Below are positions 15,099 to 46,774 of a stretch of 64,000 bases of DNA, piece by piece (position 1 is the stretch's first letter; every line of letters starts with the position of its first letter). Where the stretch lies: positions 1,612,001 through 1,676,000 of the forward strand of contig NZ_CP107548.1 in NCBI RefSeq assembly GCF_025836975.1. Reading direction: 5' to 3'. Source of the stretch: Pollutimonas sp. M17. Its GTDB lineage: Bacteria > Pseudomonadota > Gammaproteobacteria > Burkholderiales > Burkholderiaceae_B. The notes under the pieces were generated by a model. It did no database searches. It saw only the letters and a program-made list of their open reading frames with translations, and was not told where the DNA came from. Both the position numbers and the translations under genes were made by a program.

Positions 15099-17573
<2,475 letters not shown>

Positions 17574-17642
17574 TGCTTGTCGATCCCGGGGGCGTCTTTT
17601 GAAGCCGCCGCCTGGGCCGCTGACGCTGAAGGCTGTAGTCAA

Positions 17643-17684
17643 GGCTGAGTTCTGTATTGCACGGGGCTCAGCCCTTTTCTTTTT
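17643..17684 (+). terminator. probable terminator of lon
   Basis: GGCTGAG (17643-17649) and CTCAGCC (17667-17673) form a 7-bp stem with a 17-base loop, followed by CTTTTCTTTTTC. It is 70 bases after the lon stop. Confidence 0.6.
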
Positions 17685-17689
17685 CTTGT

Positions 17690-18043
17690 GCCTGTTTCGT
17701 TAGGTCTAATCGCTGGGCGTGCTTGCTGTCTGCTTGCTTGCATCAGCGCAGGTGGGTGGGGCTGCGCTTGAGTCATGTAGCGATCAGACGATGAAACTTG
17801 CGATACGCGCGAATATAGATGAAATGGATCGGAAGGGACTCTGAAAAGGGTGTTGATAGCTTAGGACGATTTCACCGTTCAGACGTCGGGATTCACTATG
17901 AGCGCCGTGCAATCTGTGAAGTGCTTGTGGTATCCAGCGTTCATGAGCCGGTCGGCCAATAGACGGCTCGAACGAATCCAAGCACCTCGGATCGATAGTA
18001 TCCAATCACTTTGGGCAATAATGGGCCTGGCCGATCAATGGAA
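17690..18043. other. non-coding stretch, no gene recognised
   Basis: About 350 bases between the lon terminator and the large palindromic element. Short frames occur on both strands (a 73-codon frame at 17784-18005 on the minus strand is the longest), but none resembles a known protein or has a ribosome-binding site. It could hold remnants of a lost gene; I see no repeat or RNA gene. Confidence 0.5.
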
Positions 18044-18270
18044 GGTGTCTGCAGGCATGGCTGGCCCGGCGGTTTACGCGTGCGCCGCGCAGGCCCTTCG
18101 TTTTGGGGAGGCAAGACCGCGCCTGCTCGAGCAACAAGGGTGTTGGCAGCCCGGGGGGCTGCCAACGTTGCGAGTTTCGCGGTCGCCCCAAAACGAAGGG
18201 CCTGCGCGGGAAGTCCTGGCTTGCCAGGACCGCAACGCGTTTAGCCGGGCCAGCCATGCCTGCAGACACC
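18044..18270. repeat. 227-bp nested palindromic element between lon and lexA
   Basis: The outermost arms, 18044-18070 and 18244-18270, are perfect 27-base inverted copies (beginning GGTGTCTGCAGGCATGG on the left). Inside, CAGGCCCTTCGTTTTGGGG near 18090 pairs with its complement near 18186, and the apex is a perfect hairpin, GTTGGCAGCCC/GGGCTGCCAAC (18141-18165). The right side carries an extra side hairpin, GTCCTGGC-TT-GCCAGGAC (about 18213-18230), missing on the left. The result is a branched cruciform lying between convergent genes. No open frame in it looks coding. It shares architecture, not sequence, with the two 161-bp elements at 46 kb. Confidence 0.85.
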
Positions 18271-18304
18271 GCTTGTCTTCCGAGCCAACGTCGCTACTCT
18301 TCCA

Positions 18305-18326
18305 TGGCGTCTTGGCCAAGACGCCA
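18305..18326 (-). terminator. perfect 22-base palindrome downstream of lexA
   Basis: TGGCGTCTTGG is followed directly by its complement, an 11-bp perfect dyad without a loop, 19 bases beyond the lexA stop codon. No T run follows on the minus strand, so this is at most a weak terminator or a 3' stabilising hairpin. Confidence 0.45.
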
Positions 18327-18344
18327 GCCAACGCGCCCGCACCC

Positions 18345-19007
18345 TTACTGCAGCGGCGTATCCCGTATCAAGCCCACGGCGATGCCTTCCAGCGAGAATT
18401 CGTCTTCGGCCGAAACGACGATGGGCTGGAAATCGGGGTTTTCGGGCAGAAGCTGGATGACCCGGCCGTCGCGGGAGAAGCGCTTGACGGTGACCTCGTC
18501 GCCCAGGCGGGCCACGACGATCTGGCCGTTGCGCGCGTCGGGCGATTTCTTGACCGCCAGAAGGTCGCCGTCCAGGATGCCCGCGTCGCGCATGCTTAAA
18601 CCGCGTACGCGAAGAAGGTAATCGGGAGTCTGGCTGAACAGCGCGGGTTCGATGCCGATTTCGCGTTCGACGTGTTCGGCGGCAAGAATGGGATTGCCCG
18701 CCGCCACGCGGCCCACCAGGGGCACCAGCAACTGCGACAGGGCGCTGCTGGCGGTTTCCAGCATGCTGGAGGACCTGTCGGCCGGCAGGTCGGGATCGAC
18801 CAGCCGTATGCCCCGCGAGGCGCCTGCCGTAAGCTCGATGGCGCCTTTCCTGGCCAGTGCCTTCAGATGGTCTTCGGCGGCGTTGGCCGATTTGAAGCCC
18901 AGGGCGCGCGCGATTTCGGCCCGCGTCGGCGGAAAGCCGCTGCGGGTGATTTCGCTGCGTATGAGTTCGAGTATTTGCTGCTGACGCTCGGTAAGCTTGA
19001 CGGCCAT
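18345..19007 (-). CDS. lexA: LexA repressor
   Basis: 220-residue SOS repressor that cleaves itself when RecA filaments form. The N-terminal winged helix (1-70) starts [13 protein letters not shown] and contains [14 protein letters not shown]. The cleavage bond is Ala103-Gly104 in VAAGNP; the nucleophile is Ser138 in [10 protein letters not shown] and the general base Lys175 in EVTVKRF. One small variation is Leu instead of the usual acidic residue before the serine (GLSM). It is autoregulated through the SOS box at 19019-19034, 12 bases upstream of the start. It lies between tyrB (upstream, same strand) and the palindromic element. Confidence 0.97.
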
Positions 19008-46000: not shown

Positions 46001-46170
46001 TTGTCTGATTTATAGGCGTGTTTCAACAGCTTCTATCTCGTCGACAGGTAGTTAATTATTGGCTCTCTGGCGGAATTTAATCGATGGCCTGACTTCCAGT
46101 CTTGATGTGGCGAGTCGTTAACCTCGGTACGGTTTCTTCTTTTCGAGATGCCTTGCTTGTTCTTTAGACG
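46001..46170. other. non-coding stretch, nothing recognised
   Basis: Left part of the gap between the convergent TehA-like gene and dctM, before the first palindromic element. No terminator hairpin with a T tract, RNA or frame could be recognised. Confidence 0.4.
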
Positions 46171-46331
46171 TGGCTGGTGGGTTGCGGACCAGGCCGCCGT
46201 CCCCGTGACCGGTTCGGCGCGCAAGGCGCCGAACACCGCATCGCTTTGCTCGTCCGCCCATTCGGGCTTCCTTCGCCTACAGCTCGCTCGGCCCCGGAAG
46301 TCCGGCCGCCCGGCCCGCAGCCCACCAGCCA
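46171..46331. repeat. 161-bp palindromic element A
   Basis: The arms TGGCTGGTGGG-T-TGCGG (from 46171) and its complement (ending 46331) pair with one mismatch in the first 17 bases and continue imperfectly into GACC/GGCC. The core (46211-46296) starts with a hairpin, TTCGGCGC/GCGCCGAA, and includes TTGCTCGTCCGC and CCTTCGCCTAC. The same core, inverted and roughly 85% identical by eye, occurs in element B at 46614-46774, also 161 bp, but B has completely different arm sequences. Confidence 0.85.
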
Positions 46332-46613
46332 CTGCATAATGGAAAATTGATGCGTTGCCGGTATACAGCTATATGTTGTTGAACCCAAATATTCTTTGGA
46401 TGTAGGCATATAGAAGCTGACGTGCTTCTGTTGGTCGGAAAGATCCAAGCCGATATCCAAACGGCCCAATATGGAAATGCCCCGACGCCCGGCGCGGCCC
46501 GGCTGGCGGGCCGTGGCGGGCAAGCGTGCAACGTCCTCATACCTGCGTTCATCGATACTAGAATACCGGCGCACAGTCTCCCTCCAAACGGCCGTGCGTT
46601 CATACATTTCGCA
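46332..46613. other. spacer between the two palindromic elements
   Basis: About 280 bases. A minus-strand frame starting near 46601 runs through it and on into element A, about 145 codons, but has no ribosome-binding site and its second half merely translates the repeat. I do not call it a gene. A GC-rich imperfect dyad (GGCGCGGCCCGGCTGGCGGGCC region, 46490-46510) is visible. Confidence 0.4.
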
Positions 46614-46774
46614 GGCGCGGGGGTGCAAGGAGGGGGGAACGGGCCTTTGGGGCCGAGCGAGTCGTAGGCGAAGGGAGCACGTATGTGCGGACGAGCAAGG
46701 CGACGCGATGTTCGGCGCGCTGGGCGCCGAACCGGCCACGCGGGCCCGTTCCCCCCTCCTTGCACCCCCGCGCC
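46614..46774. repeat. 161-bp palindromic element B (inverted relative to A)
   Basis: The arms 46614-46645 and 46743-46774 are perfect 32-base inverted copies (left arm starts GGCGCGGGGGTGCAAGGAGG). The core lies between them in the opposite orientation to element A, with the same hairpin (GTTCGGCGC/GCGCCGAAC read on the minus strand) and the same CTCGTCCGC and CCTTCGCCTAC blocks. Equal length, conserved core and unrelated but self-matching arms define a family with element A. Confidence 0.88.

Follow-up and report, generated by a model that had tools for sequence, protein, structure and literature searches.

The palindrome between lon and lexA of Pollutimonas sp. M17 is one copy of a large family of folded repeats, probably mobile

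The palindrome next to lexA in the stretch analysed here (the window, 64,000 nucleotides of contig NZ_CP107548.1 of Pollutimonas sp. M17) is one copy of a large family of folded repeats of about 220 letters, which we call J. One particular single strand of J, the window + strand at lon–lexA, is the functional fold. We consider that J is probably (at a probability of about 0.6) a non-autonomous mobile element resembling REP/REPIN, of unusual size and with several helices, that has spread through Alcaligenaceae genomes. Small bacterial mobile repeats are usually taken as MITEs, i.e. remnants of DNA transposons, or as REPINs driven by a RAYT. J is widespread, including in genomes that lack RAYT, and the way it has evolved directly reveals the strand used, and the precedence of shape over stem sequence. 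This RAYT-less spread and the visible strand use make J a good system for seeking a new strand-specific mobilising enzyme. Besides, they call for caution with the large intergenic “terminators” of these genomes, which may be mobile elements.

The letters confirm the 227-bp palindrome reported by the preliminary description at 18044-18270 (C1:1630044-1630270 in the genome), between the convergent genes lon, which stops 471 bp before it, and lexA, whose end is 74 bp away. Its outer arms are, as described, fully complementary over 27 bp, and the exact 11-bp apical hairpin, closed by a 3-nt loop, and the side hairpin, 7 bp read on the 3' side only, were equally well seen; the second paired block is present and perfect too, but it covers 24 bp instead of the 19 announced. 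Folded as DNA the palindrome reaches -117.6 kcal/mol, against -59.2 +/- 3.8 for 200 shuffled sequences, none of which folds as well (z -15.3); the RNA fold gives z -14.4 on either strand. The element is a solo copy, with no partner within 1.5 kb, and shares with a site at 46 kb the longest inverted repeats of the window. The similarity of architecture claimed for that second site holds in part: the palindrome is real, with perfect arms of 32 bp, but it belongs to a separate sequence family, F2, with about 20 places in the M17 genome. The features of both sites are the following, in window positions unless C1 is given; R1 is the covariance model of J presented below.

18044-18270, + strand: whole J-type hairpin element; by its wobble polarity it folds on the window + strand (lon-sense)
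C1:1630065-1630249, + strand: R1 match to the lon–lexA element, E 2.3e-30
18044-18070, + strand: 5' arm of the outer stem P1, complement of 18244-18270; freely variable among copies (arms of 38 copies compared)
18071-18084, + strand: 5' side of the first internal loop/junction, GGTTTACGCGTGCG; near-identical in L006, similar in L008, L009 and L117
18085-18108, + strand: 5' arm of P2, 24 bp, from complementarity; covarying
18109-18185, + strand: conserved core with the GGCAAG loop, P3, the apical P4 and the GCGAGTT motif; 91-93% identical in L002-L005
18115-18121 / 18178-18184, + strand: inner stem P3, within the conserved core
18142-18152 / 18156-18166, + strand: apical hairpin P4, within the conserved core
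18186-18209, + strand: 3' arm of P2, from complementarity
18213-18230, + strand: side hairpin at the junction, 7 bp and a 4-nt loop; double-sided change in 6 of 7 pairs (helix 6)
18231-18243, + strand: 3' side of the junction, CGCAACGCGTTTA, from the comparison of copies
18244-18270, + strand: 3' arm of P1, from complementarity
17643-17673, + strand: terminator-like hairpin after lon, distinct from the element; pattern match only
46170-46332, - strand: left hairpin of an F2 pair, inverted partner of 46614-46774
46614-46774, + strand: right hairpin of the same F2 pair, with 32-bp perfect arms

We also noticed a perfect 22-bp palindrome at 18305-18326, about 35 bp outside the distal arm and just after lexA, with no adjacent T-run.

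A BLAST search of the M17 genome finds the 85-bp core at four further places, with 91-93% identity, and longer, weaker matches elsewhere; 16 matches come from a genome of the same family, G002. Copies L002 and L003 have nearly the same core and very different P2 stems, which are yet still paired. In an alignment of 19 J hairpins, 38 of the 51 consensus pairs show at least one double-sided change, and 94.3% of the cells are paired, compared with 73.3% after shuffling and 37-40% with the partner slid; the side hairpin is likewise retained in relatives via compensatory changes. Over 38 copies (the 43 hairpins of the J sample used below minus five that were dropped), the two arms are complementary within a copy at 96% for P1 and 90% for P2, while between copies the identity of the arms slightly exceeds what shuffling gives (0.61 against 0.55 and 0.57 against 0.48), and that of the core is 0.67. 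The loops of J are conserved, and the arms change freely while staying complementary. The fold and the loop sequences are kept and the stem letters are free, which shows that it is the shape that is read and not the stem sequence. Measured on the arms, the unit spans 205-229 bp, and the J hairpins are typically put at about 215-229 bp.

From the 19-hairpin alignment we derived the covariance model R1, which finds 33 places in the M17 genome at E <= 0.01 and, in the bacterial family, 82 of 268 genomes in 25 of 43 genera, its E-values being rough. The preliminary description had named a single isolated occurrence or an assembly artefact as what would defeat its reading, and these counts rule out both. 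An even draw across the order gave 27 matched genomes among 399 at E <= 1e-4: three are of the same family, and the 24 outside it are weak (best 1e-12). The placing of the family in the Alcaligenaceae comes from two named matches, Pusillimonas sp. UBA6240 (L117) and Alcaligenaceae bacterium CAII-52 (L118). A match in Rubritepida (L116) was rejected as a member, for it looks like a chance pattern hit and has no R1 match. We dropped an origin from plasmids or phages, as blastn against records of both found no match to J. Rfam gave no match at the gathering score in 8 loci, and for the window stretch nothing better than sub-threshold matches.

The arms also carry a strand signal. A sample of 43 J hairpins, restricted to stems of 14 bp or more and followed from the spacer (proximal) side towards the distal one, gives 2057 arm pairs, of which 97 are G-T or T-G and 6 are A-C or C-A on one strand. 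The counts are 32 G-T vs 2 A-C in 25 further genomes (without L136, L143 and L144, whose hairpin is absent or cut off, and L119 and L120, already in the first sample), 72 vs 22 in genome G001 and 15 vs 4 for the F2 family; the asymmetry is weak in genome G142 (13 vs 7, p 0.26). An excess of G-T over A-C on one strand, which is reversed on the complement, indicates that selection acts on the fold of a single strand, be it RNA or single-stranded DNA. The preliminary description had also considered a cruciform. The data speak against it as the functional form: a cruciform would engage the two strands alike, and G-T pairs are retained in J arms on a single strand only.

Its further proposal of a mobile or structural class, possibly a non-autonomous element, is supported on three counts: copies are dispersed over many genomes, near-identical ones stand in unrelated contexts, and equivalent sites are empty. 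Two F2 pairs, located at 2.99 and 1.77 Mb, share 98-99% identity along 408 and 278 bp, beyond which their sequences are wholly different; one of these two near-identical pairs sits directly at a gene end. A third F2 place (L038) retains only the left half of one hairpin and the right half of the other, fused together as the product of a collapse. For J itself, G142 harbours 33 dispersed solo copies, with more than 95% identity in 158 of 528 pairs and flanks that differ, apart from one duplicated segment. The main copies of this genome being all solo and many of them near-identical, the solo hairpin itself spreads. Between otherwise near-identical copies of G142 we found multi-base compensated swaps, and one copy (L246) is mixed. 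As a side observation, L240 (G142:C1:1821768) and L260 (C1:296) have identical flanks on both sides, which corresponds to a duplicated segment or to an assembly overlap at a contig end. Likewise, the spacer of the F2 element L018 contains 314 bp (1785-2098) more than that of the near-identical L019.

At lon–lexA the gap is free of such a hairpin in all five relatives with lon beside lexA, and measures 101-533 bp there against 771 bp here; lexA was matched in 22 genomes, the loci of 18 relatives were examined for lon, five had it within reach, and most relatives in the empty-site comparisons belong to other genera. The convergent uup–rep gap of four congeneric species (L149 1119-3052, L315, L316, L317) has four different contents: 38 bp (G220), about 475 bp without hairpins, a hairpin pair, and a hairpin pair with two GNAT genes. 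In the species whose pair encloses no GNAT genes, the left hairpin has lost its core. Inspection by eye of copies A and B, the only two compared, revealed no target duplication.

J copies are either solo or arranged head-to-head around a spacer: for neighbours within 2 kb in three genomes the orientation is (-,+) in 29 of 31 cases and (+,+) in 2. A rare exception to this head-to-head rule was observed at L161 1207-1777 (G091), with two same-direction J hairpins 345 bp apart and overlapping inverted repeats. In the M17 genome J hairpins also pair with F2 hairpins, which are often their partners, and the 46-kb site is a head-to-head pair of two F2. Some pairs enclose genes: besides the two GNAT genes at uup–rep in one species, a nitroreductase or a PaaA2/ParE pair. 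The PaaA2-like/ParE toxin-antitoxin lies between two J hairpins at L059 862-1377 (G002), where the flank of one hairpin is duplicated beside it. These genes may be true cargo or may merely stand between two insertions, uup–rep being the sole comparison. A composite element with solo copies 13-14 kb apart as its ends was considered and dropped, the 76-90 kb stretch consisting of ordinary chromosomal genes.

The copies are intergenic and enriched between convergent genes. In G001 and G142, 38 of 68 elements are in convergent gaps, compared with 84 of 479 background adjacent gene pairs of the same stretches, and the M17 genome and G002 give 18 of 34; the genes were called by a purpose-written codon-usage script and not taken from annotation, and two pairs of G001 coincide in part with weak ORFs among these calls. 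Where the surrounding genes run in tandem, the folding strand is antisense to them in 14 cases and sense in 7, so that J is not, as a rule, a 3'-UTR element. With respect to replication, 41 of 54 solo copies have their folding strand in lagging-strand polarity (p 1.8e-4). In this count L240 and L260 of G142, both of the majority class, stand as two although they represent one duplicated segment or contig-end overlap, and G002 was left out for its too flat skew. The M17 genome, with replichore limits set by hand from sampled GC skew, has 11 of 13 classifiable solo copies in this polarity and two unclear; the lon–lexA copy is an exception. Taken together, these orientations point to a connection with replication and speak against a transcript of the adjacent gene. 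IS608-type elements insert into the lagging-strand template. The polarity of J is opposite to this direction, and simple insertion into the lagging-strand template is thus a poor fit.

In the reading that we favor, each copy is a folded single strand, made of P1, the junction with its side hairpin, P2, the conserved core and the apical hairpin; a short motif, CTTAAGAAC in many copies, comes next on the distal side. Selection maintains the fold and the loop sequences and not the stem letters. An enzyme acting in trans would read this folded strand, exposed at replication forks as single-stranded DNA or supplied by an RNA intermediate, and move it. Most copies are located between convergent genes, and they stand alone or form head-to-head pairs, some of which hold putative passenger genes. 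Such an enzyme was sought in the carriers. PF01797, the RAYT/Y1/IS200 transposase family, is absent from five of them (G000, G001, G006, G010 and G011), the M17 genome included, which led us to reject a RAYT or IS200 transposase as mobiliser; G002 has one PF01797 protein. A reverse transcriptase acting as for SINEs, suggested by iterated 3' motifs, was rejected as well, PF00078 being absent from the carriers G002 and G006. No mobilising gene was found on or beside any J copy, and no gene was seen accompanying the solo copies.

Other explanations account for part of these data. A structured non-coding RNA used by the host, sRNA or cis-acting, which duplication would have multiplied, would fold as the transcript of the window + strand. 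It finds arguments in the conserved loops and junction, in the double-sided covariation and in the G-U-type pairs retained on one strand; the loops, expected of a functional RNA also, are a counterpoint to the mobile reading. We nevertheless hold such an RNA to be unlikely, if the most serious competitor: a simple scan of 17500-18400 detects no sigma-70-like promoter, no Rfam family reaches the gathering score, the folding strand is more often antisense than sense in tandem contexts, the copies are numerous, the lon–lexA position is not conserved and paired copies would require two divergent transcripts. A lesser chance is left to a classical MITE, where the pair would be the transposon, its outer motifs the TIRs of a cut-and-paste transposase and the solo hairpins decayed halves. 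Head-to-head pairs with similar outer motifs (GTTCTTAAG / TTCTTCTGAC), the sharp ends of copies A and B and the genes found in spacers speak for it, whereas the fact that no target duplication was seen in these two copies and the 33 main copies of G142, all solo and many near-identical, do not; strand-specific wobble pairs are besides unexplained by a transposase acting on double strands.

We give very little credit to a bidirectional transcription terminator, which was another suggestion of the preliminary description, or to an insulator between convergent genes. The enrichment in convergent gaps (38/68 and 18/34) is in favor of this reading, but any insertion that is tolerated only if it spares promoters would show it too. 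An intrinsic terminator is a short GC-rich hairpin with an immediate T-run; no T-run follows the hairpin on either strand at 18044-18270, and lon has its own, separate terminator-like site about 370 bp upstream. Conserved loops and a 220-nt architecture are needless for a terminator, and the same gap exists in relatives without the element. Least credible of all are an assembly artefact and a palindrome without selected function that template switching, as a form of mutational self-correction, keeps perfect. Template switching or recombination would yield the compensated swaps of G142 and its mixed copy L246, but self-correction treats the strands alike and would not produce 97 G-T vs 6 A-C, nor does it explain the conserved loops, and copies in many independent assemblies exclude an artefact.

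The REP/REPIN-like mobile element that we favor shares several traits with its models: J too is intergenic, dispersed and palindromic, solo or in inverted doublets, with a folding predicted in single strands. REP doublets are described as able to collapse to single long palindromes through internal deletion (PMC3116915), a behavior of which L038 is the counterpart for J/F2. By contrast, the REP/REPIN unit has 20-40 bp, against about 220 nt for J with its branched junction, conserved loops and freely covarying arms; no GTAG or CGTC foot was seen by eye at the outer flanks of J; and REP/REPIN need a cognate RAYT (PF01797), which the five carriers cited above do not have. Lacking the short GTAG/CGTC-footed unit and the RAYT, J is treated here as a variant of gene-less mobile palindromes, which by analogy would work like a REP/REPIN enlarged about five-fold, with a conserved junction.

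J resembles MITEs (ERIC, RUP, NEMIS-like) in being small, gene-less, probably mobile, intergenic and palindromic, but its repeat unit is a single folded hairpin with strand-specific pairing and very long variable arms. The outer motifs of J pairs are, like TIRs, inverted and similar, and were matched to no transposase, PF01797 being the sole transposase family surveyed. The PATEs of Haloquadratum, palindrome-associated and IS605-related (PMC3119063), have like J near-terminal palindromes and core deletions; they show no target duplication, and none was seen by eye in copies A and B here. At the opposite, they are archaeal, with short palindromes related to IS605 ends, and the PF01797 search found no IS605 relative in the M17 genome. 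Closer to J carriers stands Bordetella, a genus of the same bacterial family. Table 3 of PMC2267715 gives for Bordetella bronchiseptica two stem-loop families, Bor-1 (117 bp, 196 copies) and Bor-2 (167 bp, 17 copies), which are intergenic structured repeats as well. Part of the J family may already be catalogued there, J and F2 being set beside both by description only. Our literature search found no description of a J-like architecture, and in view of the possible overlap with Bor-1/Bor-2 we make no claim that nothing is in print.

Integron attC sites offer another parallel. They are recognised as a folded single strand with variable arms, and accompany cassette-like genes (GNAT, toxin-antitoxin); the folded strand, the variable arms and the kinds of passenger genes are found again in J. 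The attC sites form same-direction arrays, whereas J forms head-to-head pairs (29/31 inverted, 2 same-direction) and has 220 nt, and no attC core motif was recognised in it by eye. A bolder idea, to be taken as tentative, is that J represents a new class: a gene-less element whose 220-nt multi-helix single strand, with a fixed junction and exchangeable stems, would be mobilised at the replication fork by an enzyme with no relationship to reverse transcriptase, RAYT or IS200/IS605, and whose head-to-head pairs might carry host genes (GNATs, nitroreductase, PaaA2/ParE) as hairpin-bounded cassettes.

The flanks of J have their own repeats. On the outer, distal side a motif like CTTAAGAAC occurs in many copies and is iterated 1-3 times in G142; the inner flank in this genome comprises up to about six degenerate A-tract repeats of 25-26 bp. 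Short tandem arrays with units of 16-26 bp are found beside many hairpins, e.g. L006 1371-1480, L021 1400-1470 and upstream of the hairpin in L259. These arrays are on the outer side in some genomes, and the A-tract repeats on the inner side in G142.
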